Source of the DNA: Abditibacteriota bacterium
GTDB taxonomy: Bacteria > Armatimonadota > UBA5829
DNA length: 64,000 bases
Direction of reading: 5' to 3'
NCBI GenBank assembly: GCA_017552965.1
Contig: JAFZNQ010000039.1
Coordinates: 62,001 to 126,000, forward strand
Part shown: piece after piece, positions 2,439-20,078 of the stretch
Layout: every line of letters begins with the position of its first letter
Numbering within the stretch: position 1 is the stretch's first letter
Program-made: the position numbers and the translations under genes
The notes under the pieces: model-generated
What the model was told of the DNA's origin: nothing
Database searches by the model: none
What the model saw: the letters and a program-made list of their open reading frames with translations, nothing else

Positions 2439-4199
2439 ATGGCATTAGCAAGAAAAGATGTAGGAGAGATCCTCGTAACGAAAGGATATATGACCCAGCA
2501 GCAGCTGGAGCAGGTCAGAGTCGCTCAGAAGAACGCCCCGGGCGATCTGGGCAAGATAGCCGTGGAGCTGGGCTTTGTGACCGAGAAGCAGGTCATAGAA
2601 GCAAAGGCCGAGTCCTTCAACTATCTGTTCTTTGACTTTGAGAAATCCGCCAAGACCATAGATCCCAAGTGCGCGACCCTCATACCCGAGCACGTTGCGA
2701 GAAAATACAAGGCGATCGCTCTGGGCAAGAAGCACGACAAGCTGTTTGTCTGCATCTGCAATCCCGGCGACAACACGGCGCTGAACGATATACGCCTGGC
2801 CACCGGCGTTCAGAACATCAAGATATGCCTGGGCAGCGAAGACGAGATCCTGGCTGCCATAGACCAGTATTACAAGACAGATCAGGGCATCGTGCCCTCC
2901 AACGTGGACAACACGGATATCACCGCCAAGCCGGAGAACACCCTGTCCTCCGAGATCAGACAGAATCTGGTGGATATGCAGAACGCGGACGTCGACGACG
3001 ACGAGGAAGAGGGCGAGGATCAGAACACCGCTCCCATCGTCCGCTTGGCCTATTCCATCATCAAGCTGGCCATCGAGGACGGCGCATCGGATATCCACAT
3101 AGAGCCCCAGAGAGACAACGTCCGCGTCAGATACAGGATCGACGGCGTGCTCCACGAGGTCATGCCTCTGCCCAAGTACGTTGACAAGCCTCTTACGTCC
3201 CGCTTCAAGATCATGTCGGATATGAATATCGCCGAAAAGAGAGCTCCTCAGGACGGCCGTATCGGTATCATGCTGGACAAGAAAGACTATGACCTTCGTG
3301 TCAGCTGCCTTCCCACCGTCCACGGCGAAAAGATCGTTATGAGAATCCTGGACAAGAGCTCCGTCCTCCTGGGTCTCAACAAGCTGGGCTTTACCCACGA
3401 GCTCCAGTCCGAAGTGGAAGAGCTCATCAGCCAGCCTAACGGCTGCGTGCTGCTGACCGGACCTACAGGTTCGGGCAAAACCACCACGCTGTATTCGATC
3501 CTGCACAAGCTGAACACCATCGAAAAGAATATCCTCACCGTAGAGGACCCTGTAGAATACCAGCTGCCCGGTATCGCCCAGGTCCACGTGAACAGAAAAG
3601 CCGGCCTGACCTTCGCTACGGCCCTGCGCTCCTTCCTGAGACAGGACCCCGATATCATCATGGTCGGTGAAATGAGAGACCTGGAAACCGCCAGCATCGC
3701 CATCGAGTCCGCACTTACCGGACACCTTGTGCTGAGCACCCTCCACACCAACGACGCTCCTTCCGCTATCACCAGACTTGCCGATATGGGTATTGAGGAA
3801 TACCTGATCGCCGCTACTATGATAGGTATAGTCGCCCAGCGTCTTGCCAGAAGGATATGTCCCAACTGCAAGACCTCCTATCAGGTGCCCGCCTCCGACC
3901 TGAGGCGCTTTGGCCTGAAGGAGTTTGACGACAACGAGATGATCACCCTCTACAAGGGCACCGGCTGCGAAAAGTGCAAGAACACCGGCTACAAGGGACG
4001 CTGCGGCATCCACGAGATGCTCACCGTCAACGACGAAGTCCGCGAGCTCATAGTCCGCAAGGCCCCCGTGACCAACCTGAGAGAAGCCGCCAAGGCCAAC
4101 GGCATGAACGAGCTGAGAGAAGACGGACTGATCAAGGTCCTCGAGGGCATCACCACTCCCGACGAGGTCATGAGAGTCGTCTTTACGGCCGGTTATTGA
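2439..4199 (+). CDS. pilB: Type IV pilus extension ATPase PilB
   Basis: A 586-residue GspE/PilB ATPase that powers pilin polymerisation at the cytoplasmic face of the inner membrane. An N-terminal MshEN/T2SSE_N domain (about residues 1-140) is followed by an acidic linker (DVDDDEEEGED), the GspE N2 region (ASDIHIEPQRDNVRVRYRID) and the RecA-like domain. Walker A is GPTGSGKTTT with K347; the Asp box is EDPVEYQLPG, Walker B is DPDIIMVGEMRDLETA and the His box is TGHLVLSTLHTNDA. A tetracysteine zinc site, CPNC...CEKC, follows, as in PilB and not PilT. The start is set at the ATG in 2439 because CAGGAG lies six bases before it; an upstream in-frame TTG at 2421 would bury that site. Confidence 0.95.
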   Translation: MALARKDVGEILVTKGYMTQQQLEQVRVAQKNAPGDLGKIAVELGFVTEKQVIEAKAESFNYLFFDFEKSAKTIDPKCATLIPEHVARKYKAIALGKKHDKLFVCICNPGDNTALNDIRLATGVQNIKICLGSEDEILAAIDQYYKTDQGIVPSNVDNTDITAKPENTLSSEIRQNLVDMQNADVDDDEEEGEDQNTAPIVRLAYSIIKLAIEDGASDIHIEPQRDNVRVRYRIDGVLHEVMPLPKYVDKPLTSRFKIMSDMNIAEKRAPQDGRIGIMLDKKDYDLRVSCLPTVHGEKIVMRILDKSSVLLGLNKLGFTHELQSEVEELISQPNGCVLLTGPTGSGKTTTLYSILHKLNTIEKNILTVEDPVEYQLPGIAQVHVNRKAGLTFATALRSFLRQDPDIIMVGEMRDLETASIAIESALTGHLVLSTLHTNDAPSAITRLADMGIEEYLIAATMIGIVAQRLARRICPNCKTSYQVPASDLRRFGLKEFDDNEMITLYKGTGCEKCKNTGYKGRCGIHEMLTVNDEVRELIVRKAPVTNLREAAKANGMNELREDGLIKVLEGITTPDEVMRVVFTAGY

Positions 4200-4212
4200 T
4201 AGGGGAGACTAT

Positions 4213-5337
4213 ATGGCAGACAAACCTACTACCTTCGCTCCTCAGGACGTCAAGTCCCTGAACGACGTCCATCTGGACGATCTGCTGAACGAAATGGCCA
4301 GCCTGGGCTCCTCCGACCTTCACCTGGCGGTGGGGCTCCCGCCCATGATCCGCAAGGACGGCGGTCTCAGGAAGCTGAACTATGAAGTCTTCAAGCCCAT
4401 GATCCTCCAGAGGGTCATATACGACATCCTGAACGACGAGCAGATACAGAAGTTCGAAGAGTCCTGGGAGCTGGATATGTCTTACTACGTCCAGAACCTG
4501 GCCCGTTTCAGGGTGAACATATATAAGGACAGAGGCAATCTGGCCGGCGCCTTCCGTATCATCCCCATGAAGACCCCTACCATCGAGGAGATGGGTCTTC
4601 CCAAGGTGCTGGGGGATCTGTGCGAAAAGCCCAGAGGCCTCATACTGGTGACCGGTCCTACCGGCTCCGGCAAGTCCACCACCCTGGCTGCCATGGTCCA
4701 CAAGATCAATCTGGAGCAGGAGCAGCATATCATCACCATCGAGGACCCTGTGGAATTTGTCCACAATCACATCAAGAGCATCGTCAATCAGAGAGAAGTG
4801 GGCACGGACACCAAGGCCTTTGCCAACGCTCTGAGAGCCGCCATGCGTGAAGACCCGGACGTCATCCTGGTGGGTGAAATGAGAGACCTGGATACCATGC
4901 AGAATGCTATCCGGGCCGCCGAGACAGGCCACCTGGTCTTTGCCACCCTCCACACCAATTCCGCGTCTTCCACCGTGGACAGGATCGTGGACTCCTTCCC
5001 TGCGGAGCAGCAGGAGCAGATCAGGCTCATGCTGTCCAACTCCCTGCAGGCTATCCTGTGCCAGCAGCTGCTGCCCAGAGCCTCCGGCAAGGGCCGTATA
5101 GCCGCCATGGAGATCCTGCTGGGGACTCCCGCCGTGCGCAACCTTATCCGTGAATCCAAGAGCCATCAGCTGACCAGTACCATCCAGACCAGCGGCGGTA
5201 TCGGCATGCAGACCATGGACCAGCACCTGAAGGAGCTGTATCAGTCCGGAATGGTCACCTATGACGACGCCGTGGGCAAGGCCATGAGCCCAGAAGAGTT
5301 CAAGGCCATGGTATCGTCGGGTCAAGTGAAAAAATAA
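4213..5337 (+). CDS. pilT: Type IV pilus retraction ATPase PilT
   Basis: A 374-residue hexameric ATPase that depolymerises the pilus and drives twitching motility. An N-terminal PAS-like domain (SSDLHLAVGLPPMIRKDG) precedes the RecA-like core. Walker A is GPTGSGKSTT with K154, and Walker B is EDPDVILVGEMRDLDTM. The PilT-typical AIRAAETGHLVFATLHTNSA block follows. There is no zinc tetracysteine, which separates it from PilB. The start follows an AGGGGAGA ribosome site. It lies 13 bases after pilB and 18 before pilC, so the three are cotranscribed. Confidence 0.95.
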   Translation: MADKPTTFAPQDVKSLNDVHLDDLLNEMASLGSSDLHLAVGLPPMIRKDGGLRKLNYEVFKPMILQRVIYDILNDEQIQKFEESWELDMSYYVQNLARFRVNIYKDRGNLAGAFRIIPMKTPTIEEMGLPKVLGDLCEKPRGLILVTGPTGSGKSTTLAAMVHKINLEQEQHIITIEDPVEFVHNHIKSIVNQREVGTDTKAFANALRAAMREDPDVILVGEMRDLDTMQNAIRAAETGHLVFATLHTNSASSTVDRIVDSFPAEQQEQIRLMLSNSLQAILCQQLLPRASGKGRIAAMEILLGTPAVRNLIRESKSHQLTSTIQTSGGIGMQTMDQHLKELYQSGMVTYDDAVGKAMSPEEFKAMVSSGQVKK

Positions 5338-5355
5338 CCATAGGAGGCAGTACAC

Positions 5356-6579
5356 ATGCCCAGTTTTTCGTATACCATCAAGGACGAAGAAGAAAAGATC
5401 CTGGAAGGCACAGCCGAAGCCGACAGTGAAGATATTCTCCGCACCCGTCTTTCCGAACAGGGCTTTACCGTTCTCGAGATAAAGCAAACCAAGACCACCA
5501 CCGGCGCCCGCAAGGTGTACGGCGGCGTCAAGGCCAAGGACCTGTCCATCATGTGCAGACAGTTCTCCGTTATGATCGACGCCGGCGTGTCCCTGGTCCG
5601 CAGCCTGAACGTTCTCAGTCAGCAGGTGTCCAACCCCAAGCTGAAGATAGTGCTGGAGGACGTGAAGCTGGACGTGGAGGCTGGTAATCAGCTCTACAAG
5701 GCTCTGTCAAAGTATCCCGCCATATTCGACAGACTGTTCGTCGGTCTGATCAAGGCCGGCGAGGTCGGCGGTAACCTGGAAGAGTCCCTGCACAGACTGT
5801 CGGAGTTCCTGGAGTCCGACGTGAAGCTCAAGAACAAGATCAAGTCCGCTATGACCTATCCTACGGTAGTTATGGTGGCGGCCATCACCATCGTGCTGGT
5901 GCTGATGACCTTTGTCATCCCTCAGTTTTTGAGCATGTTTGAGGACCTGGGCGTCAAGGAGCTCCCTCCCACCACCCAGTTCCTGAAGGACTTTTCCGAC
6001 TTCCTGCTGCAGAAGTGGTATCTGCTCATAGGCATCGTGGCCTGCGCCGTGGGTCTGTGGAAGTGGATCGCCTCCACCAAACTGGGCAACAGGTGTATCG
6101 ACTGGGGCAAGCTGAAGGTGCCCGTGTTCGGCGATCTGACCCTGAAGGTGGCTATCAGCCGTTTTGCCAGAACCCTGGCTACCCTCCTCTCCTCCGGCGT
6201 GCCCATTCTGCAAGCCATGGAGACCGTGGCCGGCACCGTGTCCAACGAGATCATCTCCGACGCCATCTTTGACGCCAGAGAAGCCATCCGCGAAGGTGAG
6301 GGCATCGCTCCTCCTCTGGAGCGCAGCAAGCTGTTTCCTCCCATGGTGGTCCACATGATCGCCATCGGACAGGAGTCCGGCGCTCTGGACCCCATGCTCC
6401 TGAAGGTGGCAGACTTCTACGAGGACGAGGTGGACAACATGGTGGCCTCCCTGACCTCGGCTCTGGAGCCTTTGCTGATCATATTCCTGGGCGGAATAGT
6501 CGGCTTTATCGTCATATCGGTCTTTATGCCTATCATCAACATCACCCAGACCCTGTCCGGTGACGGCGCTGCCGAATAG
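5356..6579 (+). CDS. pilC: Type IV pilus inner-membrane platform protein PilC
   Basis: A 407-residue GspF/PilC polytopic protein that couples the cytoplasmic ATPases to the growing pilus. It has two GspF cytoplasmic domains (about residues 70-195 and 270-395), each followed by membrane helices: VVMVAAITIVLVLMTFVIP, then YLLIGIVACAVGLW, then PLLIIFLGGIVGFIVISVFM near the C-terminus. Typical blocks are MCRQFSVMIDAGVSLVRSLN and RFARTLATLLSSGVPILQAM. TAGGAGGC precedes the ATG. The operon ends here with a strong hairpin terminator 28 bases downstream. Confidence 0.94.
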   Translation: MPSFSYTIKDEEEKILEGTAEADSEDILRTRLSEQGFTVLEIKQTKTTTGARKVYGGVKAKDLSIMCRQFSVMIDAGVSLVRSLNVLSQQVSNPKLKIVLEDVKLDVEAGNQLYKALSKYPAIFDRLFVGLIKAGEVGGNLEESLHRLSEFLESDVKLKNKIKSAMTYPTVVMVAAITIVLVLMTFVIPQFLSMFEDLGVKELPPTTQFLKDFSDFLLQKWYLLIGIVACAVGLWKWIASTKLGNRCIDWGKLKVPVFGDLTLKVAISRFARTLATLLSSGVPILQAMETVAGTVSNEIISDAIFDAREAIREGEGIAPPLERSKLFPPMVVHMIAIGQESGALDPMLLKVADFYEDEVDNMVASLTSALEPLLIIFLGGIVGFIVISVFMPIINITQTLSGDGAAE

Positions 6580-6606
6580 GTACAGAGATATAATTGAAAC
6601 TTTTGG

Positions 6607-6639
6607 GTCTATCAGTGCGTCGCACTGATAGACTTTTTT
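6607..6639 (+). terminator. Intrinsic terminator after pilC
   Basis: A near-perfect inverted repeat runs from GTCTATCAGTGCG (6607-6619) to CGCACTGATAGAC (6621-6633), followed by TTTTT (6634-6638). The stem is about 12 base pairs with a tight loop, which is strong for a rho-independent terminator. Confidence 0.88.
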
Positions 6640-6643
6640 ATGT

Positions 6644-6666: not shown

Positions 6667-6682
6667 TAACAGAGGTGTCAGC

Positions 6683-7591
6683 GTGAACATTCAGCTATTG
6701 ACCATAGGCATAGTATTTGCCTTTCTCTTCGGGATCACCATAGGCAGCTTTCTCAACGTGTGCATATACAGGCTGCCTCTCGGTATGTCCGTCAATTTTC
6801 CCCCTTCCCATTGTCCCAAATGCAAGCACAGGCTGGGGGCGGCGGACCTGTTTCCTCTCTTCAGCTTCCTGCTTTTGGGCCGCAAATGCAGATATTGCGG
6901 CGCCCCCATCAGCTGGACCTACTTTTCCCGGGAGCTGCTCACCGGGCTCATATTCGTGTGCATCTTCCTCCGGTTCGGCTACAGCATAGACACTGTGTGC
7001 TACTGCCTCTTTGCCGCGGGGCTCATAGTGGCCTTCTTCACCGACCTGGAGACCTACATCATACCCGACTCGGTGAACATAGCCCTCTGCATCTTCGGCG
7101 TGGCCCGGGATATAGCCCGGATAGCCGAGGCCTCCGGCTACGCAGTGGGCGGCGGCTCCGCCCTGACCCTCTACAGCATCCCCTTTACGGACGTGAGCTT
7201 TCGCATGATGCCCTCGGTCATGGGCATAGTGCTGTGCGGCGGCGCCTTCTGGCTGCTGACGGTGATAGGCTACCACGCCTTCAGGCCCAGAGATCCCAAA
7301 AAGAGAGAGGGCTACGAAGGCGCCATGGGCATGGGCGACGTGTTTCTGGCAGCCGGCATAGGCGCGGTGCTGGGGGCCCGGAAGGGCTTTATCAGCTTTC
7401 TCGCGGCCATATTTCTGGGCACCTTCATCGGCCTTATAGTGATAGCCGTCCGCAGGAGAAAGGGCGACCTGCAGGGAGAGGGCACCATGATCCCCTTCGG
7501 GCCCTTTATGGCCGCCGGAGCCATGATAGTACTCTTCTTTGCAGACAAGCTGACCCTCCTCTGGAAACTGTGGCTGGGCCTGTTTGCATGA
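6683..7591 (+). CDS. pilD: Prepilin peptidase/N-methyltransferase PilD
   Basis: A 302-residue polytopic aspartyl protease that cleaves prepilin leader peptides and methylates the new N-terminus. The N-terminal block GSFLNVCIYRLPLGMSVNFP is followed by the CPKC and CRYC cysteine pairs of the methyltransferase loop. The two catalytic aspartates are D121 in FFTDLETYIIPD and D219 in GMGDVFLAAGIGAV. About eight hydrophobic segments are visible. A GTG start is used, with GAGGTG upstream. A roughly 45-residue extra stretch around RIAEASGYAVGGGSALTLYS separates the two catalytic regions. The neighbours are its likely substrates, the pilin-like proteins directly downstream. Confidence 0.93.
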   Translation: MNIQLLTIGIVFAFLFGITIGSFLNVCIYRLPLGMSVNFPPSHCPKCKHRLGAADLFPLFSFLLLGRKCRYCGAPISWTYFSRELLTGLIFVCIFLRFGYSIDTVCYCLFAAGLIVAFFTDLETYIIPDSVNIALCIFGVARDIARIAEASGYAVGGGSALTLYSIPFTDVSFRMMPSVMGIVLCGGAFWLLTVIGYHAFRPRDPKKREGYEGAMGMGDVFLAAGIGAVLGARKGFISFLAAIFLGTFIGLIVIAVRRRKGDLQGEGTMIPFGPFMAAGAMIVLFFADKLTLLWKLWLGLFA

Positions 7592-7643
7592 TACAGAAAA
7601 TACCAGAACGCGGGAACATTGAACGGATTTAGACAGACTAATA

Positions 7644-7668
7644 AATGTATGCGAATACATTAATTTTT
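7644..7668 (+). promoter_or_regulatory. AT-rich hairpin between pilD and the pilin gene
   Basis: AATGTAT (7644-7650) pairs with ATACATT (7655-7661) and is followed by an AATTTTT run. It could be a weak terminator for pilD or a leader structure for the pilin gene. A possible promoter (TTGAAC at 7619-7624, TAAATG at 7642-7647, 17-base spacer) overlaps it. The two readings conflict and the sequence alone does not decide. Confidence 0.35.
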
Positions 7669-7683
7669 GCAAGGGTTGAATCT

Positions 7684-8424
7684 ATGAATACGAGAAACAA
7701 ATTCATGCATGAAGGCTTTACTCTCATCGAGCTGCTTACGGTCATAGCCATAATTGCTATATTGTCCGCTATCATTTTCCCGATCATGAAGAGCGTGTCC
7801 GAGCAGACGGATCGCACCGCCTGCACCTCCAATATGAAGGAGATAGGGGTGGCTCTCTCCATGTATCACGCCGACAACGGCCGCTATCCGGCCGGACTGG
7901 CTCCCGACGTGGAGTATGACGGCGACGGCAATCCCAAGGGCATCACAGGCTCCAAGACCAACCTGTTCGCCAATGACTATCTGGCCAACACCGAAGCTTT
8001 TCATTGCCCCTCCGACGTCCGTTTTGAGGACAAGTATGAAGTTGTTAAGCTCGCCGACAGGGACGTGTACGCCTATTCGTCCTACGAGGTGTATATCAAC
8101 GACGCCTCCTCCTATGACAACGTAGGCACCGACAACGTGGTCTGCTACAACGCAGGCAGCAACCCCGTGAAGCAGTACGCCCTGTCCTGGACCAATGACA
8201 AGGACGCCGCCGGCACCGATTATGCCAGGCAGCTCAAATGGAAGAACCCTCCTTCAAGCACCGTGGTCTGCTGGTGCATGAATCATGCCGATTACCCTTA
8301 CGCTCAGGACGGCTCCGCCTCCGGCAAGTCGCTGGTGCTGTTCCTGGACGGTCACGTAGATCTGTTTAACGACGTATCCATAGTGGCAGGCAACACCTGG
8401 AAAGTAAAGCCCATCAAAGAATAG
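7684..8424 (+). CDS. Type IV pilin-like protein (short, likely major pilin)
   Basis: A 246-residue prepilin. The leader MNTRNKFMHEG is cut before FTLIELLTVIAIIAILSAII, which has the conserved Glu at mature position 5 and a hydrophobic helix. The globular part has four Cys, repeated aromatic/Asp patches and a C-terminal FLDGHVDLF block like that of the DUF1559/H-X9-DG pseudopilins common in Armatimonadota, Planctomycetota and Verrucomicrobiota. The start is placed at 7684 since AAGGG lies about eight bases upstream and the leader is then of normal size; an ATG at 7645 would add 13 residues. As the smallest of the four pilin-like proteins here it is the best candidate for the main subunit, which is inference. 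Confidence 0.82.
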   Translation: MNTRNKFMHEGFTLIELLTVIAIIAILSAIIFPIMKSVSEQTDRTACTSNMKEIGVALSMYHADNGRYPAGLAPDVEYDGDGNPKGITGSKTNLFANDYLANTEAFHCPSDVRFEDKYEVVKLADRDVYAYSSYEVYINDASSYDNVGTDNVVCYNAGSNPVKQYALSWTNDKDAAGTDYARQLKWKNPPSSTVVCWCMNHADYPYAQDGSASGKSLVLFLDGHVDLFNDVSIVAGNTWKVKPIKE

Positions 8425-8453
8425 AGTTCCGTATTAGAATGCAGGATAGAAGA

Positions 8454-10427
8454 ATGAAAGCTATGAAAAGAATAACAGCTGTGCATGGCAGACGCGGTTC
8501 TACGCTGATCGAGATCCTTGTCACGATATTTGTCCTGACAGGCGGTTTGTTTGTTCTGTACGGAATGTATCCTCAAGGCTTCAATATTCTGGAAAATGCC
8601 CGGAATATCAATACAGCCAAGGGGCTTATCCAGACAAGTATCTCGGATCTGCAGTCCAGAGCCGGCAATTTGCCATTTGCCATAGTTCCGTGCGACGATC
8701 TCGGAGATCCGGACGGCAGGATCCAGCAGGGCAACGGCACCGTGAAGATCTCCGCCCTCAACCCTTATCTCACCGAGAAGAACACCTTTGAGACCGACGA
8801 AGACGGCAACTACAAGGCCGACGGCCAGGGCAATTATCAGAGAGGCAGCCTGCTCCGCAGCAGAAAGGTAGTGGGCGAAAAGACCGAGATACCCGGCGGG
8901 GACTACGTGACCACCGCCAACGGCAACCTCTACGGCGGCAAATACACGCTGCTCTTCAGCCCCATAGACACCGAGAGAGACGCTGCCGGCAAGCTGGTCC
9001 GCTTCAGGATAGCAGGTCCCGAGATGACTCTCATAGACGACTCGGCCACCTCCCAGTATCCGGTCAATCAGATATGGACCGATGCAGAATTCGGCTGCTA
9101 CTTCAGCGAATATGACAGCAGGCTGTATTTTGCATTTTTGCCCTCTTCCGTCTATACCACCATGGACTATACCCGGAAGCTGGACTACGACAGAAAGTAT
9201 TACGTATCCTACATGGTGCGCAACCAGACCACGGGCCAGGTGTTCCGCAAGGAAGGCGGCATCCGGGTCAAGTCCGACTACGACGGCAGATGGAGCACCC
9301 TGTTTTATGACTACGACGAGAACAACGCCGAGCTGAACACCACCAACCTGATGGACGTGGGCAACGGCTACGTATTCCTGGCGGACACCCTGAAGGTCAA
9401 GAGGATCTTCGAAGAGGTGACGGACGGCAGCTTTGGCAGAGATCCCTACCAGTTCGTCATGGCCGACCCCATCGTGGGCACCGTAGTATTCAACCCTCTC
9501 GGCCACGACCTGAAGTTTGAGGCGGACGGCCGCAAGACGGCTCTGACCGCCACCATAGACTACATGATATATGACTCCCGCATCATCGCGCAGGACTTCC
9601 AGTTCCCTGCCAGTCACGATTATGACGGCTCGGTGAAGCTGAAGCTGCACACGGGAGGCATCCTGGGCGTGGGCAGTCCCACCGACATCACCGACGGCGC
9701 CGGCACGGACAACCCCGACGAGCCCACCTTTGAAGGCCTCATCAGAGGCGCCTTTGACGCCACGGGCAACGTGAACCTGCAGCTGGGCCACAAGATATCC
9801 ACGGTGGACGAGCTGGTGCTGCCTCAGTCGGTGCTCATCATCGACATGGCCACCGGTCTCAGAGTGTTCCCGGCCGACGAGGACGCTTCGGATATATCCA
9901 TCGACTTTGGCAACGGAGTCATCAACTTCCGGTCCTCCACGGTGGATCTGATCAGCTGGGCCGACGGCTCCTCCAGACCCGTGTATTCGGACGTGGATAT
10001 GTCCAACAGGGCCGTGAGAGTGTATTACCGCACGGACAACGACTGGCTGGTGAAGTTCGTCAAGCTGCCCGACAGCTTCATGGACAACGGCAAGGGCGAG
10101 AAGAACTACAACCTGAACGTGGACCTCAACTGGGACGAATACGGCATAGCGGCCAACTCTCCCGGCAGGGTGTATTTCCCTCAGGTGTACGCCGGTCTGG
10201 ACGTACTGGTGGACTATGTGGACACGGACGGCAACGCCGTGTACGGCGAGCTGCAGAAGATATCCGAGTTCCCCGAGGACAACCAAAGCAGCTGCTACAT
10301 CGAGCTGAAGAATGACGCCGAGTCCATCTCCAACATCAGAGGCTCGGGGATCAACGTAGGCGCTTACTGGAGAAACAACGGTAAGTTCAGAGCGAGAGAC
10401 ATCAATTTTTCAATCATCGGACAGTAA
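8454..10427 (+). CDS. Giant pilin-like protein, PilV-like N-terminus
   Basis: A 657-residue protein with a prepilin N-terminus: a basic leader ending HGRRG, then STLIEILVTIFVLTGGLFVL. Mature position 1 is Ser and not Phe, but Glu5 is kept. The pattern resembles PilV-type minor pilins, which are normally below 200 residues. The remaining 600 residues are rich in Asp, Gly, Tyr and Asn, predicted beta-rich, and matched no family I can name. The start is taken at 8454 because AGGA lies seven bases upstream; ATGs at 8439 and 8463 are alternatives. It is 29 bases after the pilin and 3 bases before the next gene, so it belongs to the same transcript. A role as a tip or surface-exposed minor subunit is inferred. 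Confidence 0.7.
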   Translation: MKAMKRITAVHGRRGSTLIEILVTIFVLTGGLFVLYGMYPQGFNILENARNINTAKGLIQTSISDLQSRAGNLPFAIVPCDDLGDPDGRIQQGNGTVKISALNPYLTEKNTFETDEDGNYKADGQGNYQRGSLLRSRKVVGEKTEIPGGDYVTTANGNLYGGKYTLLFSPIDTERDAAGKLVRFRIAGPEMTLIDDSATSQYPVNQIWTDAEFGCYFSEYDSRLYFAFLPSSVYTTMDYTRKLDYDRKYYVSYMVRNQTTGQVFRKEGGIRVKSDYDGRWSTLFYDYDENNAELNTTNLMDVGNGYVFLADTLKVKRIFEEVTDGSFGRDPYQFVMADPIVGTVVFNPLGHDLKFEADGRKTALTATIDYMIYDSRIIAQDFQFPASHDYDGSVKLKLHTGGILGVGSPTDITDGAGTDNPDEPTFEGLIRGAFDATGNVNLQLGHKISTVDELVLPQSVLIIDMATGLRVFPADEDASDISIDFGNGVINFRSSTVDLISWADGSSRPVYSDVDMSNRAVRVYYRTDNDWLVKFVKLPDSFMDNGKGEKNYNLNVDLNWDEYGIAANSPGRVYFPQVYAGLDVLVDYVDTDGNAVYGELQKISEFPEDNQSSCYIELKNDAESISNIRGSGINVGAYWRNNGKFRARDINFSIIGQ

Positions 10428-10430
10428 AAT

Positions 10431-12335
10431 ATGAAAAGCATGATCATTAACAGAGCGCCAGTGAGCCGGCAAGGCTTCACTCTCATGGAGCTTTTGGTAG
10501 TATTGGCTCTTTCTATCATTCTTATGGCGCTGCTCCTGGTACCTATCTACAAGACTCTGGAAAACAACCGTCTTACCGGAGCCAGTGTGAACGCCCAGAA
10601 GTCTGCCCGGGATGCCATGGACAAGGTGAGAAAGGATATCTCAGAGGCTATATACGTCTATGACTCCGGCGAGACTCCCATGCTGCTGCCCGTCAACCAT
10701 TTGGTGGACTCCGACGGCAACTTTGTCGACAAGCCTGTGGTCCTGGACAATGCCGTGATCAATCTGATCATGCCCAAGACCGAGTTCTACTGCTCCAATC
10801 CGGATCACGATCCCTCTGCCAGCAGGAGCTTTCCAAGAGGCGACAGATACGCCGACGACGGGCTGGAAATGGCTATCAACGAATGTCCTTCCTGCCACAC
10901 CAGCCAGTTCGTAAAGGTAGTCCCCAAGACTCCCATCGAAAAGGGCAATCTGGTGGTCAGATACTTCCTGGGCCTCAAATACAACAAGGACGAGGATGCC
11001 AATAGGAGCATCATGACTGCCGGCGACCTGCTGGCCGATCCTCTGGACTGGACAGTGGCCGACAACGAGGGCTGGAGACCCGAGTCCAACTGGAACGAGG
11101 CAGAGGGCATGGACAACAGCCTGATCCTCTACCGGGTGGAATTCGATCCCTATGACGACAGCCTGTTCCCCGAGGAATACTCTCTGCCCGAGGACAGAGA
11201 AGCCGCTCCCGAGCAGTGGGACAAGGTGATGGCCAGGAGGATCTCCGACGCCAACGTGTTCTATCATCCCGACGTGGCCGACGTATGGGCCGAGCGGGCC
11301 GACACCGTGGGCCTGGCGGAGGCCATGGACCTGGGCGCCGCCGACAAGGACAGAGATTACGTGGACGGCCACCCCTTCAGAGTCAAGGCTACCGTGGCCT
11401 TTGTGCCCGCAGCCATAGCCGGCGAGGCTCCCAGAGCCGACACCGGCAACGAGGCTGTCTTTGACGGACAGGGCTTTGCCCCTGCCTCCTACAGCACCAA
11501 ATACGCCCTGCTGGGCAAGACCCTGAGGGTGGAGGTGACCCGCTCCGACGCCAACATGCAGCCCGTGAAGAAGTGGCTCCTGGAGGTGGCTCCCAACGGC
11601 TCCAACGGCATCCTCAAGGAGTATGCCTCGCCGTCGGATCCCACCAGCGCTCTCAGCAGCGTGTTCGACGTGAACGACTATATGTACGGCGCTTCCCGCA
11701 GCGTGTCCCTGACGGATATGCAGGGCGAGGATATGCCCATGGCCTTCACCTTCAACGCCGAGAACGGCAAGATAGAGTTCGGCCTGGTTCCCAAGCCCAA
11801 TCCGGAGCTGCAGGACAACCTGGATCAGACCCGGCTGTTCTACTATCCCGACATAGACGTTTACGGCTACAAGTTTCTGGAATATCCCAACGCTTCCGTG
11901 GTTCCCGGCAGCGAACAGGTGAGCTATTACAACGCCTATTACCGCAACAACACCGGCGACATAGTGGAGAACGGCTACGTGACCTACAACGATCTGGAAG
12001 CCCACGGGGTGGACAGCGTGTTTTATCAGCGGGCGCCTTATTCCCTGGGTCAGCTGACCTACAACCAGTACAAGATGGATTATGAAAAGGGTATAGTTTA
12101 CTGGAAGCCCTTGCTCGCCCATAACGCCAACGTGTTTCCCGAGCTCTATATTGACATACCCACGGTCAATTACAGGATCCAGTTCAACAAGCCTTCCGAC
12201 AAGGTTACTATTTCCTACAGCACCAACGAGGTTATCGACGTGGTCATGGATATGAGGATGCACTACAGCAACAGCTTCCCGCCCAAGTCCTCTTCGGTAA
12301 ACGAAAAGGTCGTGGTAGGCAATGCGTTAAGATAG
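10431..12335 (+). CDS. Giant pilin-like protein, PilW/GspJ-like N-terminus
   Basis: A 634-residue protein with leader MKSMIINRAPVSRQG followed by FTLMELLVVLALSIILMALL, including Glu5. The next stretch, AQKSARDAMDKVRKDISEAI, resembles the start of PilW/GspJ minor pilins. The large C-terminal part has a possible metal site (FYCSNPDHD...NECPSCH, about residues 105-150) and then long beta-rich, acidic sequence with no family I recognise. Usual PilW/GspJ proteins have 200-350 residues, so this one is about twice as long. It lies 3 bases after the PilV-like gene and 10 bases before the PilX-like gene. Confidence 0.7.
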   Translation: MKSMIINRAPVSRQGFTLMELLVVLALSIILMALLLVPIYKTLENNRLTGASVNAQKSARDAMDKVRKDISEAIYVYDSGETPMLLPVNHLVDSDGNFVDKPVVLDNAVINLIMPKTEFYCSNPDHDPSASRSFPRGDRYADDGLEMAINECPSCHTSQFVKVVPKTPIEKGNLVVRYFLGLKYNKDEDANRSIMTAGDLLADPLDWTVADNEGWRPESNWNEAEGMDNSLILYRVEFDPYDDSLFPEEYSLPEDREAAPEQWDKVMARRISDANVFYHPDVADVWAERADTVGLAEAMDLGAADKDRDYVDGHPFRVKATVAFVPAAIAGEAPRADTGNEAVFDGQGFAPASYSTKYALLGKTLRVEVTRSDANMQPVKKWLLEVAPNGSNGILKEYASPSDPTSALSSVFDVNDYMYGASRSVSLTDMQGEDMPMAFTFNAENGKIEFGLVPKPNPELQDNLDQTRLFYYPDIDVYGYKFLEYPNASVVPGSEQVSYYNAYYRNNTGDIVENGYVTYNDLEAHGVDSVFYQRAPYSLGQLTYNQYKMDYEKGIVYWKPLLAHNANVFPELYIDIPTVNYRIQFNKPSDKVTISYSTNEVIDVVMDMRMHYSNSFPPKSSSVNEKVVVGNALR

Positions 12336-12345
12336 GGGCAGGACT

Positions 12346-15060
12346 ATGATGCGTACCAATAATTCCAAGGGTTTTACTCTGATACTTGCCTTGATAGTAT
12401 TGACCCTGCTATCAACACTGCTGGCTCTGTTCATCGCCATGGTGTCATCCAATCTGAGGCAGTCCCAGAATTCGCTGAAGATCTCCACCATCGAAGTGAT
12501 GGCCAACTCGGGCATAGATTACTGCAACAACATGCTGATCCACAGCCCGGACGGAGCCGACTGGCGGCCTGTACCCGACAACATATCCATGGTCGAAGAC
12601 TGGATGCCCGATCCGGCCAATCCCATGCCCGACGAAGCCGACTGTGTGGCCAACCTGAGGGAGCTGGCGGAATCGGACCCCGATTATGACAACCTGATAG
12701 CCTATTGGCCCACGGAGCTGCAGACTGCCGACGGCATCACCTACGCAGGCCCCAACGGCGGCTACACCAGAGTCAACTCCGGCGACGGCAGATTCCTGGT
12801 GAGGGTGTCCTATGACAGCGTCACCCCCGGCGAGGACGGAGTCTATTTTGCCAACTTCTTCGACGCAGAGTCCAAGTTCATCAGGATAGAATCCATAGGC
12901 AAGCTGGGCGTAGTGGACGAAAACGATCCCACTACCATGAAGCCCTACGGCAATCCCACCAAGCAGCATTATCTGGTGGCCTACAAGCCCATAGGCATCA
13001 CCGACTATCTGAGGTTCGTCACCAACAAGGACAACCGCAAGACAGTGTTCAATATAGGCACCGATTTTCTCCATGAGACCTTTGGCCGGGCTCAGACCCG
13101 CTACTCCTTCAGAGGCGCTCCCATGAGGATCCAGGGCGACGCCGAGTTCGACGCCAACTGCAACGTGTTCCTCAGAGGACAGGAGCTGGACGTGAACGGC
13201 AGCAGCGTGGTATCCCCCAGAGACTATCTGGAGATCACCGGCGAGCTCTCCAATCCCGACCTGGAGTTCGTCACTCTGTTCTCCTGCGACGACACGCGCT
13301 CCGATCTCATGGACGACAACGTCAGCAAGGACCTCTTTGTCAAGAGAGGCGGCGCCAGGACCGGCGACGGCGTGACCAGGATCGCCGCTCCCATACTGGA
13401 CGTCAGCGACGTGACCAAGGCCAACCTGAGATACAGGGCCCTGACCAAGAATTCGGGCAAGTATCTGGCCGACACCGGCAGGAATTCCGGCGAGTTCGGC
13501 TGGGGCTCGGGTATATATATCAACAATACCTCCGACGTGCAGAAGGAATCGGAGACCCTCTTCGGCGGCTATTCGCTGAGAGCCGACTGGCTGAATCCGG
13601 GCAACCTGTTCAGCAGGAACTGGCAGGGTCCCTACTATATCCCGCCCGGAGTGGTGGTGGTGCTGCATCCCGACATCAGTACGGGCATCACCATTACCCG
13701 CACCGATTTTGACTCCCGCAACAAGAACAGAGTCTGGTGCGACGCCGAGGGCTACCCCCATCCCGAATGGGGCGCCACCATCAACGTGCCCTATCCCGTG
13801 GAGGGAGAGGACCGCAGCTTTGACGGCAACGGACTGCCCCGGTGGGCCGACCCCGGCCAGAGCCGGATAAAGGGCAACGGCGTGCTGTATGCCGAGGGCA
13901 ATATCCGCATCAAGGGTATGCTGCCCGAGAACGTGCAGCTGACGGTGGTATCCAACGAGAACATCTACATCGAGGGCAACCTGCTCAAATACAGGACTGC
14001 CGACACAGAGCTGGACAGGGCAGTGGATATGCTGGGCCAGGACTCTTCGCCTGTGGACCACAGATGCTCCCTCAGCCTGCTGGCCCGGAACAACGTGGTG
14101 GTGAATACCACTCAGTTCCTGGCTCCTCAGATGGCTCTGGGTCCCGACGACACGGCCTCCGACGCAGACGGCAGCAACGAGCCTCCCTACCATATGGAGC
14201 TGTCTCCCATGGATTATGGCCGCAGCTTCAGCTGGAGCTACATGTTCGGCCCCTACGAGAGCGAGACCGACCTCTACGGCGCCGTGCTGGCCAACGGCTA
14301 CAACGTGATGCTGCGCCATTCTTCCAAGAACGGCTTCGTGGACGCCTATATGGACGTCTATAATCAGAACGTCCGCAACTGGAGATCTCTCAACTGGGGC
14401 AGCGAGCTCAACCAGAATCCATATTACAGAGACAACGCCTATCGCAACAAGCTGAGAATGGACGGCGGCAACGCCTGGGATACCCTGGCCAACGGCTCCG
14501 GCTGGAGATACGCCGAGGAATACTTCAAGCTGTTTGACAGTGACATCTACGACGGCGCCCGTCCCACCTTTGGCGACATACAGTATATGCGCATATTCCT
14601 GGACCGGGAGTCCGTGGGCAACTATGTGCTGGGCAACATATCCGTGAACCCCATGGACGTGAGGATAGAGGCTCTGACCTATGCTCAGAACGGGTCCTTC
14701 TTCATCATCCCGGGCTACTGGTTCAACCCCGATCCCAACTTTGACAATGACAAGCTGTGGATGCTGGGCGACCCCATGGATATCAGAGTGACCATAGACG
14801 GCGCCATCTCCGAGAACGTGATGGCCGACAAGAGCGACCAGAGAGCCTGGATGGAAAAGTGGGGCAAGACCTTTGACCCCTCGCTGGAGGACCACGACAG
14901 CTATCACGACGGACAGGGCCTCAACATACTGTATGACGATCACCTGGCTTACCCGGTGGTGGACATGCAGCCCATCCGGACCGACAGATACGGCAGAGTG
15001 CTGCCCGTGTCGCCCAAGCTGCCAGTATCGGAGACCCTGGTGTATAAGGGCCGACCATAA
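12346..15060 (+). CDS. Giant PilX/GspK-like protein with DUF4900-like region
   Basis: A 904-residue protein whose leader MMRTNNSKG is followed by FTLILALIVLTLLSTLLALF. Mature position 5 is Leu and not Glu, as in PilX/GspK-type tip proteins. The segment after the helix, SSNLRQSQNSLKISTIEVMA, keeps the PilX pattern. In the middle, GVLYAEGNIRIKGMLPENVQ and LTVVSNENIYIEGNLL resemble the DUF4900 region found in long PilX-like proteins of Armatimonadota and Deinococcota. The C-terminus holds aromatic-rich sequence and ends in SETLVYKGRP. It is last in the pilin cluster and is followed by a terminator. Confidence 0.72.
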   Translation: MMRTNNSKGFTLILALIVLTLLSTLLALFIAMVSSNLRQSQNSLKISTIEVMANSGIDYCNNMLIHSPDGADWRPVPDNISMVEDWMPDPANPMPDEADCVANLRELAESDPDYDNLIAYWPTELQTADGITYAGPNGGYTRVNSGDGRFLVRVSYDSVTPGEDGVYFANFFDAESKFIRIESIGKLGVVDENDPTTMKPYGNPTKQHYLVAYKPIGITDYLRFVTNKDNRKTVFNIGTDFLHETFGRAQTRYSFRGAPMRIQGDAEFDANCNVFLRGQELDVNGSSVVSPRDYLEITGELSNPDLEFVTLFSCDDTRSDLMDDNVSKDLFVKRGGARTGDGVTRIAAPILDVSDVTKANLRYRALTKNSGKYLADTGRNSGEFGWGSGIYINNTSDVQKESETLFGGYSLRADWLNPGNLFSRNWQGPYYIPPGVVVVLHPDISTGITITRTDFDSRNKNRVWCDAEGYPHPEWGATINVPYPVEGEDRSFDGNGLPRWADPGQSRIKGNGVLYAEGNIRIKGMLPENVQLTVVSNENIYIEGNLLKYRTADTELDRAVDMLGQDSSPVDHRCSLSLLARNNVVVNTTQFLAPQMALGPDDTASDADGSNEPPYHMELSPMDYGRSFSWSYMFGPYESETDLYGAVLANGYNVMLRHSSKNGFVDAYMDVYNQNVRNWRSLNWGSELNQNPYYRDNAYRNKLRMDGGNAWDTLANGSGWRYAEEYFKLFDSDIYDGARPTFGDIQYMRIFLDRESVGNYVLGNISVNPMDVRIEALTYAQNGSFFIIPGYWFNPDPNFDNDKLWMLGDPMDIRVTIDGAISENVMADKSDQRAWMEKWGKTFDPSLEDHDSYHDGQGLNILYDDHLAYPVVDMQPIRTDRYGRVLPVSPKLPVSETLVYKGRP

Positions 15061-15066
15061 ATTAAG

Positions 15067-15086
15067 AGGCTGCAGCGCAGCCTTTT
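15067..15086 (+). terminator. Intrinsic terminator after the pilin cluster
   Basis: AGGCTGC (15067-15073) pairs with GCAGCCT (15077-15083) across a three-base loop and is followed by TTT. It lies 7 bases after the PilX-like stop codon. The U-run is short, so termination may be partial. Confidence 0.7.
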
Positions 15087-15101
15087 AATATCATAGAGCC
15101 A

Positions 15102-15131
15102 TTGAAGTACAGACAAAGATAGTTATATTAT
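15102..15131 (+). promoter_or_regulatory. Promoter of the 1640-aa exported protein gene
   Basis: TTGAAG at 15102-15107 and TATTAT at 15126-15131 are 18 bases apart, just downstream of the terminator. This suggests that the large gene is expressed apart from the pilins. Confidence 0.5.
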
Positions 15132-15155
15132 TATGCCCCGAGCGGAGTTTTAACT

Positions 15156-18100
15156 ATGAGAAATACCATAAAAATCCTGTTAACAGCTGCCTTATTCGCA
15201 GTGTGCTGCACCATGCTGTTTGCCGAGGCCCAGCATTACAATGCCACGGTCAAGGTAAGAGCAGCCGTGCTGGAGCTTGCGGATGCCAACGGCAACGGTG
15301 TCATCGTCAACAGAAGCGGCACCGCCAGGACCATATCTTCGGGTTGGCTCGATACTCTGCTGACCTTCCAGAGCCTGAATCTGTCAAGGGATACCATCGG
15401 CATAGACGCCAGAGCCAACATTGAGTTTGAGTTCTACAATCCCAATGCCATGCCCGAGTATGCTCAGTTTGCCGACTACGCAGGGAATACTAATATAAAT
15501 CCGACCAATTTCTACAACGACCAGAGAAACAATCCCGTGTACTGGCTGCTGCCTGCCGACTGCGTGACAGCCAGGGCCCTCTCGCAGCTGGACGTGCTGC
15601 TGGTGCCCTATGCCGCCGGCGACGTGTATCAGCTCCTGTCCATGAACAAGACAGTCAAGGACTGGGTAGCCAGGGGCGGCGTGTTGTGGTATGACACGGA
15701 CAAGCCCTCCAAGAGCGTGCCCATAGATATCACTCCCATAGTCAAGCTGTCCTTTGGCAAGGCCTCCGGACGCTCCGGTATCAGCAGCACCAGCCCCATA
15801 CTGGACTATCCCTTCGTGCTGGATCTGGACAAGATCACCGACCTGTCCGAGGGCAGCCTGCAGCAGACAGGCACTCTGGGTCTGGAGCACAATTTTTCCG
15901 CCATCACCTTCAACAACGACGCTCCTTCCTACAGCGTGGTGAAGGTGGGCGAGGGCAAGGTGGTCTTCAGCTTTGATTCCCTGACGGGAAAGATCGTGGA
16001 TCTCTCCGCTTCCGACGACTACAAGAAGGCTGCCTTCAACATGCTGTATTATGCCCTGGGCAACACCACTCTCCGCAGCGGCGCCCTCACGGGGCTTTTG
16101 GGCAGCAGCGTGACCTATACCGGCGGCTTCGCCGGCAAGGCCAAGCCCATCATAGACGCCAACCGGGTCATCTATACCACCGACATGCCCGGCAACTACG
16201 CAGTGTATATAGAGGGTGAAAAGCTCACCAACGGCCAGTGCCCCGATCGGGACAAAAAGCTGTCCAAGCCTGCAGTGCTGGGCGAGAATGACGTGGTGGT
16301 CTATGACGAGGACGGCGTGGTCTATCTCTACGACGGTATCACCTATACCATGGGCGGCATGAACGTGGGCACAGGCAGATGGCTGAAGATCTACGAGCCT
16401 GAGGACACGGACCATCCCGATGATACCGACGACTTTGCCAACACGGACTATGCTCCTCTGGTCAGAGACAACTGGGTCTATTATGCCGACAATTACGCCA
16501 GGCTGCACTGCATCTACACCAAGGATCTCTCCTCCGGTGAGGCTCAGCACAGCTGGGTGACCAAGGTCACAGTCAACGCCAACGACAGGATGCTGCTGGC
16601 TCAGCCCCTGCTGTATTCCTGCACGGAGAGCAACGGAGCCTACGTGACCCACGTGGTCATGGCTACCAGAAAGATCAGCTCCGACTCCGACCAGCCCAGC
16701 ATCTCCTCGGTGCCCGTGTTTGTGGAAAACGAGGTGTGCTCCAATCAGCCGGCCAATCAGCCCTCCACAGACGTGCTGAAGCCGGATCTGACGGTGTATC
16801 CCTCCTTTGCCAGCAACAAGATGAGCTATTACAAGACCGAGGGCGGCGAATACATGCTGGACGTGGTCTGCGAATACAACATCGACGACGAGCTGCCGGT
16901 GGAGCAGTTCACCCTGACAGAGGGCTCGGACTATACAGTGGAGGACAACAAGAGTCTGATGCTGAAGTCCAAGAGGGTGACCAACAGCGAAGACGATTCC
17001 TCCTATCTTGCCATGTCCGATGACAGCGACCTGGTGAGGGGCGAGTCCAGGCTGAAGTACGTGCGCCTCAGCGACATGAAGTTCATCCTGACCTACGTGC
17101 CCAAATACGATAATGCTCCGGTGGGAGGCGGCACGGGAACGCGTCATTTCTACATAGAGAACAACGTGCTGGCCAATGCGGGCGACGGCTTTGTCATCAA
17201 ACTGAAGACCTATGACGTGGACGAGACCGGCTCCAAAAAGAACAGATACATAGCCAAGATCTACAACAATTCCATTATCACCAACGGGACCGTGGCCAAC
17301 ACCAGAGCCATGCAGTGGTCCTATCTGGTACACGGCGGTTATGACGGCATGAAGCTGCCCGAGGGCACCTCCACCTACACCGGCTCTCTCAAGTCGGAGA
17401 TCGACTGGGAGTTTCCTTACGGGACCACGAACCTGCCGGATATCACCAGCCTTTCCGATCCCGTCGCAGTGGGCGACAGAGTCTATTTTACAGCCACTGC
17501 CACCGTTGACGGCATCAACAGGACGGCTGTCATCTGCGTCAAGAACGACCCTACATACAAGCTGAAGATCGTGGACGAAGACGGCAACCCCGTACGCCTC
17601 TACAGCAACAAAAAGAATGAGTCCGACGCCTGGGTGCGGGACAAGACCTATGACGTGATGATATATCAGCCCGATCCCGTGTTCAAGGATTACGGACCCG
17701 ACGCCATCCGGTTCAACGTGCGCAACGCCGGCCTGCAGCTGGGTCTGGATGAAGAACAGGGCATCATCACCATCACCAAGAACAACACCCTGCGGCACAC
17801 CGTGGGCGAAAACTCCGATCCCAAGTGGCTGCCCTGCGGCGGCGTGACGGCCGCCCTGCCCGTGTTCGTCAGCGTGGACGCCAAATTCCTGCCCATCAAG
17901 AACGACACCTATCCCTTCATACCGGACGATTACAACGAGAACAACACCTCCAACAGCCTCAGCGTGTGGGACGGTGACAGCAATAAGACCAAGAAGCTCT
18001 ACGTGGATATGAGCGAATGGCAGACCCTGTGCTGGTACAGCATCCTGCCCGGCAACACCAAGGCCGCCATCTGCCCGGTGGTGTCCGGGGACAACGTGAT

Positions 18101-20078
18101 GGTCTTTGCCGAGACCCAGGACGAGAACTCCAGCTTCGTGAGCAACAGCGTATATACCATTTCGCCCAAGGCCAATATTCTCTCCGGCAGCAAAGTGACA
18201 GACATCAAGTCGTCGGGCCTGCCCGACTCTCTCTATCTGACAGGCAACAGCAACGTGGCCATGGGCGTTCCGTCCATAGGCAGCAACCTGATAGCTGCCC
18301 CCGCTCAGGTCAGCGGGACCCCGGGTATCGCCCTGTTTGAAAACAGCCGCACCCTGGTGGTGGACAACAACAAGGTGCTGGAGATAGACGGCAACGGCGA
18401 CGCCGCCTGGAGGCTGACCAATCCCGAGATGATGATCCGGGACGGCAACAGCTGGGTGCGCAGCGGCTTCACCCTGAACAATCCGGTGAAGGCCTCCTAC
18501 CACGTGGACGACAACTTCTACAACAAGAGCTGCATCGTGGTAGCCGACGCCGGCAGAAAGGCAGTGATGTTCTTTGACAAGGCCGGCATAGTCAAGACCA
18601 GCTCCTACGACGGCATGGAATACAGCTGGTATTTCAACAGGTTCGTGGACCAGTACGGTCTGATGCCTTCGGGCCAGAGCTCGGATCTCAGCAACATAAG
18701 CGACTTCCAGGTGTGGACCGAAAAGCTGGGCGACTTCATATACAGATACCACATCACTGTGGCCGACTCCGGCAACAAGCGCATAGTGGATATGACTCTG
18801 GTGGACAACAACGGCCATCTGGAGGACTGCTTCGTCACCGATAAGGGCGAGATCATGCCCTATCTGAACTGGATCTGCTACGACAGCTTTACCGACAAGA
18901 AGTTCAAGTTCACCTCCGTGCAGGTCTCCGACGTGATCAGAGACCCCGTGGCCGGCAAGGACGTCCGGCTGGTGGTGGCAGGCATCGCCAACTTCAACGC
19001 TGCCGAGCGCAGCGGCCTGAAGAAGAGCAAGGGCGGCTCGGTGCTCATCTATTCCTATGATCTGCTGGACAACACAGACACAGTGAACAGATACGGCAAG
19101 GCCATCGACTCCATAGGCAAGAAGACCGACAAGCTGGGCGTGCCCGGCACCTTCGGAGATATGCTGGCCGACAGCGTCAGCAACAAGCTGCTCCAGTCCA
19201 TCAGCGGTCTGAAGAAGGCCGTCATCACGGGCTATCACTTCAACCAGGGCTCCGAGTCGGCCGATATGTCCCACATAGGCATAGCGGTGCTGGACGACAG
19301 CGGCATAGTGGAATACGTGGTGGCGAGAGACGGGTCCAACAGTCCCATACAGAACTCCGACGGCACCTATCAGTGGAAGGGCAGAAGGTTCGTGACTGCC
19401 AGCTACTTCGGTATGAACAGTCCCGAGGCCGACAAGCTGACCAGAGGCTCTCAGGTAGCCGAGTACTCGCTGGTGACCTTCCCCGGCCGCGTAAAGGCCT
19501 TCTCGGCGGACTATTACAAGAGAGCCGGCTTTGCCTCCGGCTACTCCCAGGGCAGCAACACCACCTACAGGAACAACTGGCTGCCTCTGAAGGCTCCTCT
19601 GGTGCCTATGGATCTGAAGGTCCTGGGCAACGGCAACTGGCTGGTGACCAACGGCTTCAGCGGCGACCTGAACTACCGCTACAAGAACCCCTATGACGGC
19701 AACGTATATCTGGCTAAGGGCAAATATACGGGCGAGGTGTTCGAGGTGGATTTCCAGGACGTCTATGACGGCAACGAGAACAACCAGGAGTGGTGGGCTC
19801 CCAGACTGGTCTGGAGCAACACCAACATCCGGTCCTACAACGTGGACGACTATCTGCCCAACATAGAAAAGTCCCCCAGAGCCATATGGTTCCTGGAGCT
19901 GGCAGACCAGATCGCCCTCTGGAACAGGACCGTGGAGGAGATGGACGGTGTGATCTATCCCGACCCGTCCGTGGCAGACAACGGCGACGTCAATCAGCCT
20001 ACCGTGCTGGGCACCATAGTGGGCGGCTGGAGAAACAGCGGAGCCAAGATGAGCTTCCCCAAGTCTGCAGACAGATAA
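15156..20078 (+). CDS. Very large exported protein, possible pilus-linked adhesin
   Basis: A 1640-residue protein with a signal peptide (MRNTIKILLTAALFAVCCTMLFAEA is the N-terminal 25). About residues 125-190 (LSQLDVLLVPYAAGDVYQLL, then KDWVARGGVLWYDT) resemble a glutamine-amidotransferase-like Rossmann domain as in DUF4350 or ThuA-type proteins. The rest is beta-rich; segments such as IVVADAGRKAVMFFDKAG, TVADSGNKRIVDMTLVDNNG and RTLVVDNNKVLEIDGNGDAAW look like blades of an NHL/PQQ-type propeller. There is no membrane anchor or sorting signal at the C-terminus. Its place right after the giant pilins suggests a job like PilY1 (pilus-tip adhesin, propeller-bearing), but the sequence is not PilY1 and this is inference. 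GGAG lies nine bases before the ATG. Confidence 0.6.
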   Translation: MRNTIKILLTAALFAVCCTMLFAEAQHYNATVKVRAAVLELADANGNGVIVNRSGTARTISSGWLDTLLTFQSLNLSRDTIGIDARANIEFEFYNPNAMPEYAQFADYAGNTNINPTNFYNDQRNNPVYWLLPADCVTARALSQLDVLLVPYAAGDVYQLLSMNKTVKDWVARGGVLWYDTDKPSKSVPIDITPIVKLSFGKASGRSGISSTSPILDYPFVLDLDKITDLSEGSLQQTGTLGLEHNFSAITFNNDAPSYSVVKVGEGKVVFSFDSLTGKIVDLSASDDYKKAAFNMLYYALGNTTLRSGALTGLLGSSVTYTGGFAGKAKPIIDANRVIYTTDMPGNYAVYIEGEKLTNGQCPDRDKKLSKPAVLGENDVVVYDEDGVVYLYDGITYTMGGMNVGTGRWLKIYEPEDTDHPDDTDDFANTDYAPLVRDNWVYYADNYARLHCIYTKDLSSGEAQHSWVTKVTVNANDRMLLAQPLLYSCTESNGAYVTHVVMATRKISSDSDQPSISSVPVFVENEVCSNQPANQPSTDVLKPDLTVYPSFASNKMSYYKTEGGEYMLDVVCEYNIDDELPVEQFTLTEGSDYTVEDNKSLMLKSKRVTNSEDDSSYLAMSDDSDLVRGESRLKYVRLSDMKFILTYVPKYDNAPVGGGTGTRHFYIENNVLANAGDGFVIKLKTYDVDETGSKKNRYIAKIYNNSIITNGTVANTRAMQWSYLVHGGYDGMKLPEGTSTYTGSLKSEIDWEFPYGTTNLPDITSLSDPVAVGDRVYFTATATVDGINRTAVICVKNDPTYKLKIVDEDGNPVRLYSNKKNESDAWVRDKTYDVMIYQPDPVFKDYGPDAIRFNVRNAGLQLGLDEEQGIITITKNNTLRHTVGENSDPKWLPCGGVTAALPVFVSVDAKFLPIKNDTYPFIPDDYNENNTSNSLSVWDGDSNKTKKLYVDMSEWQTLCWYSILPGNTKAAICPVVSGDNVMVFAETQDENSSFVSNSVYTISPKANILSGSKVTDIKSSGLPDSLYLTGNSNVAMGVPSIGSNLIAAPAQVSGTPGIALFENSRTLVVDNNKVLEIDGNGDAAWRLTNPEMMIRDGNSWVRSGFTLNNPVKASYHVDDNFYNKSCIVVADAGRKAVMFFDKAGIVKTSSYDGMEYSWYFNRFVDQYGLMPSGQSSDLSNISDFQVWTEKLGDFIYRYHITVADSGNKRIVDMTLVDNNGHLEDCFVTDKGEIMPYLNWICYDSFTDKKFKFTSVQVSDVIRDPVAGKDVRLVVAGIANFNAAERSGLKKSKGGSVLIYSYDLLDNTDTVNRYGKAIDSIGKKTDKLGVPGTFGDMLADSVSNKLLQSISGLKKAVITGYHFNQGSESADMSHIGIAVLDDSGIVEYVVARDGSNSPIQNSDGTYQWKGRRFVTASYFGMNSPEADKLTRGSQVAEYSLVTFPGRVKAFSADYYKRAGFASGYSQGSNTTYRNNWLPLKAPLVPMDLKVLGNGNWLVTNGFSGDLNYRYKNPYDGNVYLAKGKYTGEVFEVDFQDVYDGNENNQEWWAPRLVWSNTNIRSYNVDDYLPNIEKSPRAIWFLELADQIALWNRTVEEMDGVIYPDPSVADNGDVNQPTVLGTIVGGWRNSGAKMSFPKSADR

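Follow-up and report, generated by a model that had tools for sequence, protein, structure and literature searches.

Three giant minor pilins and a giant exported protein in a conserved type IVa pilus operon of Armatimonadota

A type IVa pilus operon carrying three giant minor pilins, V, W and X, followed by a giant exported protein, BIG, is described here, and the V-W-X-BIG set is a near-universal trait of the phylum Armatimonadota and not a local oddity. We consider an oversized priming and tip complex at the type IVa pilus of this phylum to be the best reading of the set, with a probability of roughly 70%. The operon spans positions 2439-20078 of the window, the 64,000-nt stretch of DNA that was analysed, in a draft genome of 2.78 Mb, and is ordered PilB-PilT-PilC-PilD-pilin-V-W-X-BIG:

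2439..4199 (+), PilB extension ATPase (PF00437 8.4e-138, MshEN; NCBIfam PilB 633 bits, slightly below the cut-off)
4213..5337 (+), PilT retraction ATPase (NCBIfam TIGR01420 500.5 bits against a cut-off of 319.1)
5356..6579 (+), PilC platform protein (PF00482 1.3e-64)
6605..6635 (+), putative terminator in the pilC/pilD interval, a terminator-like stem of 14 pairs plus a T-run (consensus scan)
6683..7591 (+), PilD prepilin peptidase (PF06750 1.5e-31, PF01478 1.9e-9)
7684..8424 (+), pilin of normal size, probable major pilin (N_methyl above cut-off, GspG-like, DUF1559)
8454..10427 (+), V, giant PilV/GspI-type minor pilin (GSTLIEILV N-terminus, Glu5, AlphaFold model)
10431..12335 (+), W, giant PilW/GspJ-type minor pilin of 634 aa (N_methyl above cut-off, Glu5, AlphaFold model)
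12346..15060 (+), X, giant PilX/GspK-type minor pilin of 904 aa without Glu5 (alignment of relatives)
15156..20078 (+), BIG, exported protein of 1640 aa, proposed PilY1 analogue (signal peptide, domains of relatives)

The operon in the window and in related genomes

A previous sequence-only reading of this DNA had described a pilin followed by prepilin-type proteins of 657, 634 and 904 aa and by an exported protein of 1640 aa, and all of these ORFs are in place. The close order after pilD with almost no gaps, which was also claimed, is likewise found, PilD lying upstream at 6683-7591 and the gaps being 3 nt between V and W and 10 nt between W and X; 95 nt separate X from BIG. The best named relatives of PilB are Armatimonadota proteins. 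The PilB ORF opens at a TTG at 2421 and its homologues begin at the ATG at 2439, the pilin has 246 aa from the ATG at 7684 and 259 aa from 7645, and V has 657 aa from 8454 and 662 aa from 8439. PilC scores marginally below its curated NCBIfam cut-off. The consensus scan gave no longer stem elsewhere in the region than the strong one at 6605-6635, which could divide the operon into two transcripts; with the 95-nt gap upstream of BIG as well, more than one transcript is possible. Genes for a RuvX-like protein, MltG and a HAD-type phosphatase occupy positions 348-2295, upstream of pilB; relatives, too, have MltG and the phosphatase as neighbours, in many cases along with a shikimate dehydrogenase-like gene that is missing from the window. 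Downstream of BIG the window holds a biotin ligase gene on the opposite strand.

Profiles of V, W, X and BIG were used to analyse the conservation of the operon in 48 loci, among them 20 further regions taken from all over the phylum; a few contigs were counted twice (e.g. L030 and L164), which leaves slightly fewer than 48 independent loci. The order PilB-PilT-PilC-PilD-pilin-V-W-X-BIG is kept in 47 of them as far as the contigs extend, and the exception, L032, deviates only in that a short pilin-like ORF precedes pilB. In loci L030-L062 the linkage is independent of the selection, since these were found via PilB and not via the giants, and genomes of the same family retain the entire operon wherever the contigs permit. 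The median gaps across loci are 3 nt (V-W), 5 nt (W-X) and 43 nt (X-BIG). Thus the synteny check proposed with the sequence-only reading came out in its favour, the giants remaining linked to pilD in related genomes and not being scattered.

Homologues of X were found in 275 of the 291 genomes of the phylum (191 of the 194 good genomes) and homologues of BIG in 240 of the 291, figures that rule out a single-genome oddity. The large size is also general: across the phylum V measures 537-764 aa (median 640), W has a median of 634 aa, X a median of 933 aa with a maximum of 1109, and BIG measures 1362-1733 aa (median 1533), the smallest values recorded for W and X being broken genes or short chance matches. 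Outside the phylum the profiles of V and W retrieved only normal pilins of 142-397 aa, and that of X, run against 29 genomes of other phyla, gave matches in four, restricted to its first ~60 positions and to ordinary frames of 163-318 aa.

The distances among the homologues correlate with those of PilB (Mantel r of 0.92 for V, 0.91 for W, 0.82 for X and 0.91 for BIG), and the median identity is 27-30% for V, W and BIG versus 63-65% for PilB. Since the distances track PilB while V, W and BIG diverge more, shared descent with fast-changing exposed surfaces fits these data. Chance ORFs are ruled out by the homologues and the synteny; full-length homologues (20-83% identity), the preserved order and a divergence that tracks PilB (Mantel r 0.82-0.92) indicate that the frames are real genes.

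Pilin signatures, large regions and the exported protein

The pilin, V, W and X all have the signal motif and the hydrophobic helix of type IV pilins (class III prepilins), and PilD is encoded in the same operon. The Pfam family N_methyl is matched above its cut-off only by the pilin and W, the matches of V (E 0.039) and X (E 0.13) both falling below it; alignments of relatives demonstrate that the N-termini of V and X are of the prepilin type and conserved phylum-wide. Glu5 is invariant in V (19 homologues aligned) and in W (17 homologues aligned), and X has a hydrophobic residue in its place in the aligned relatives. A missing Glu5 is the mark of GspK/PilX tip pilins. The presence of Glu5 in V and W, its absence from X and the I-J-K order agree with an assignment to GspI/J and GspK (PilV/W and PilX), and the curated models for these families give low scores (X against GspK, 13.7 bits for a cut-off of 130; W against PilV, 12 for 52.2; V, no match). 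V, W and X are GspI/J/K (PilV/W/X)-type prepilins that far exceed normal size, in accordance with the oversize originally claimed for them.

When V, W and X are compared with each other, the common segment is limited to the N-terminal pilin region. Neither they nor their diverse relatives contain an additional Pfam domain, and hence they lack the recognisable non-pilus domain which, together with a pilin module, defines a modular pilin (PMC8179133). AlphaFold models of medium confidence (pLDDT 68) were obtained from sequences of the window and of related loci. In the model of V a helix at 23-73 is followed by an all-beta part (pLDDT 68, pTM 0.73), and in that of W a helix at 18-72 is followed by a mostly beta part (pLDDT 68, pTM 0.64). 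Both single-chain models thus show a long pilin-type N-terminal helix, continued by ~560-590 residues of other, mostly beta, structure. A Foldseek search with the V model returned multi-domain beta-sandwich proteins (complement C5) as top matches, at TM-scores of 0.05-0.1, too low for the fold to be named, and the search with W gave no match below E 0.1. Profile searches of solved structures with V, W and X found the pilin helix (geopilin) alone and otherwise only matches at E >0.1. The profile analysis recommended for the C-terminal regions consequently recovered the pilin helix and left the large regions with no Pfam match and no usable structure match. Residues ~121-170 of W contain a C-x4-H...C-P-x-C pattern, which is zinc-ribbon-like and occurs in an exported pilin; W proteins of the window's class retain it, those of Fimbriimonas-like and Chthonomonas-like relatives do not.

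BIG begins with a Sec-type signal, as judged by eye, and the protein of the window has no Pfam match. Among 12 relatives, DUF4159 was detected in 9, near residues 105-250, and a PQQ propeller in 8, near residues 980-1180, the propeller matches being weak. Against the designed 'Cake' propellers BIG passes for the whole sequence; we take these matches as a hint, since no single stretch passes. The PilY1 family PF05567 is absent from BIG and from all 291 genomes of the phylum, and the same search found one member in a Sedimenticola genome; hhalign gave 0.2% probability for an alignment of BIG with this true PilY1. What defines PilY1 proteins is a propeller at the C-terminus, and their N-termini vary (PMC13190605). 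With no PF05567, and with DUF4159 and a weak propeller in its relatives, BIG occupies the place of PilY1 and perhaps follows the same plan but falls outside the family, and is probably a PilY1 analogue. An extra large exported ORF lies directly 3' of BIG in many relatives (L168, L169, L170, L172-L176 and L121) and is missing from the window; the one tested (L168, 13425-16000) gave a match to a PQQ propeller and another to a Golvesin C-terminal domain.

Pilus machinery and the proposed tip complex

In addition to the operon, the genome encodes a second PilT above the cut-off, PilM (PilM_2 above cut-off), a weak PilN and a PilQ-type secretin; PilO and PilP are seen merely as adjoining ORFs with no family matches. 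Thus PilB, PilT, PilC, PilD, PilM/N and a secretin, the components of a type IVa pilus system, are all present. The secretin is found in two frames (L183, 6820-9379, contig C61), with the N-terminal part at 8576-9337 and the secretin part at 6820-8787, pointing either to a split gene or to an error in the assembly. Dispersed over the genome are some 16 other single prepilin genes, which code for proteins of normal size, mostly 240-313 aa (18 places, L001-L008), and many pseudopilins have reportedly been seen in Fimbriimonas.

These components bear on the possibility that the operon encodes a type II secretion pseudopilus, in which V, W and X would be GspI, GspJ and GspK and BIG a secreted substrate or an accessory protein. 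The I-J-K order and the GspG-like pilin fit such a system, as do the nearly equal GspE and GspD scores of PilB and the secretin, and an Armatimonadetes system was placed in T2SS by Denise et al. (PMC6668835). However, type II secretion is characterised by the lack of a retraction ATPase and by GspL/M rather than PilM/N, and here PilT lies within the operon in nearly all loci, above the curated cut-off, with a second PilT elsewhere in the genome. Moreover PilM is of the PilM type, the sole secretin found scores best as PilQ, and fimbriae have been reported in Fimbriimonas (PMC4072686). The second PilT, PilM, the weak PilN and the secretin make a retractable type IVa pilus the likelier system, and we regard the secretion pseudopilus as unlikely.

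Thus, we propose that the locus would constitute the assembly and tip half of a type IVa pilus locus, in which PilD would process the four prepilins and the normal pilin would probably build the shaft. V, W and X, equivalent to GspI/PilV, GspJ/PilW and GspK/PilX, would prime the filament and remain at its tip, each exposing an extracellular region of 500-850 residues in place of the usual 100-250, and BIG, once secreted, would probably dock on X in the way PilY1 docks on PilX, completing an oversized tip complex on a pilus presumably extended by PilB and retracted by PilT. The absence of Glu5 from X and the canonical pilV-pilW-pilX-pilY1 order fit such a tip complex, and the roles given to V, W, X and BIG follow by analogy from Myxococcus, in which a complex of PilY1 with PilV, PilW and PilX primes the pilus and occurs in pili at tip-like ratios, and PilY1 requires PilX for its accumulation (PMC7541494). 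Our best guess at the function is attachment, adhesion or surface capture being the supposed purpose; Fimbriimonas is fimbriate and non-motile, and attachment has been suggested for it (PMC4072686). It is well possible, though somewhat less likely than not, that the set is a separate ancestral tip machine of >3,800 residues with three giant minor pilins, novel pilus folds and a non-homologous DUF4159/propeller replacement of PilY1.

Two other uses of the large regions were weighed against this tip complex. X resembles the Thermus ComZ in being GspK-like, and ComZ is a large tip pilin that binds DNA (PMC6561018), so the structure might be a competence pilus with giant domains that mainly bind DNA; yet X has no sequence match to ComZ among the solved structures, no competence genes were seen adjoining the operon, and three giants plus BIG exceed what ComZ requires, which makes a competence role rather improbable. 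Alternatively, the large regions might decorate the surface all along the pilus, given that V and W retain the Glu5 with which they could enter the shaft and that the tip placement of V, W, X and BIG comes from inference. Against this, a subunit with 560-590 residues next to its helix would probably collide with the adjacent ones in the shaft, as argued for ComZ and for the PilB of S. sanguinis, and the minor pilin genes are single-copy and in priming order; decoration is in our opinion the least probable of these readings.

Relation to known systems and significance

The sequence-only reading had held that well-studied type IV pili offer no example of this layout. This must be restricted, since the gene order is the standard pilV-W-X-Y1 of the Myxococcus xanthus clusters (PMC7541494) and large pilins were already known; what stands as new is that three giant minor pilins occur together with a giant partner outside the PilY1 family, and that this set is near-universal in a phylum. 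As the order is canonical, it is the size that constitutes the unusual feature. The fimU-pilV-pilW-pilX-pilY1 clusters of Myxococcus and Pseudomonas share with this operon the succession of V, W, X and a large exported protein, the Glu5 pattern and the PilT/PilM/PilQ machinery, but here V, W and X exceed their counterparts severalfold in size, the last protein lies outside PF05567, a FimU-type gene is not singled out and the cluster is fused to pilB-T-C-D. With PilY1/PilC, BIG has in common a large size, export, the place after pilX, a variable N-terminal domain and a probable propeller; it differs in having no PF05567 (in 291 genomes of the phylum), a DUF4159-like instead of a vWA N-terminus and no profile match.

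Hitherto, large pilins have been known one at a time. ComZ of Thermus thermophilus, like X, is GspK-like and carries a bulky additional part, and it has been argued to fit at the tip only (PMC6561018). Tip pilins of the ComZ kind are characterised by a beta-solenoid inserted into a GspK-like pilin fold; ComZ has 554 aa compared with the 904 of X, no sequence match between them is detectable, and there one giant is present instead of three plus BIG. Modular pilins reach 860 aa (PMC8179133) and carry a recognisable adhesin module such as vWA or lectin, e.g. PilB of Streptococcus sanguinis, whereas the extra regions of V, W and X are without a Pfam match and the set is kept throughout the phylum. 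The Verru_Chthon cassette proteins A-D (TIGR02596-TIGR02600) also form a prepilin-like cassette, in a further phylum that has received little study, and the model of one of them has up to 1296 positions; the best score against their cut-offs was 22.5 for 70 bits, over the N-terminal helix only. Identity with the Verru_Chthon cassette, HpsC or tapirin was discarded, the matches being N-terminal or sub-threshold only. No description of giant pilins of Armatimonadota was found in the literature searched, subscription journals being mostly outside its reach.

The knowledge of minor pilins and PilY1 derives mainly from Proteobacteria and Myxococcota. In nearly the entire phylum Armatimonadota the same priming order is found with every minor pilin enlarged and PilY1 not recognisable, and the V-W-X-BIG set offers a simple genomic marker for the pili of these bacteria. 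Its study would test how bulky a tip complex may be and still pass a secretin, whether solutions other than PilY1 have arisen independently, and to what the pili of this phylum, few members of which are in culture, attach.
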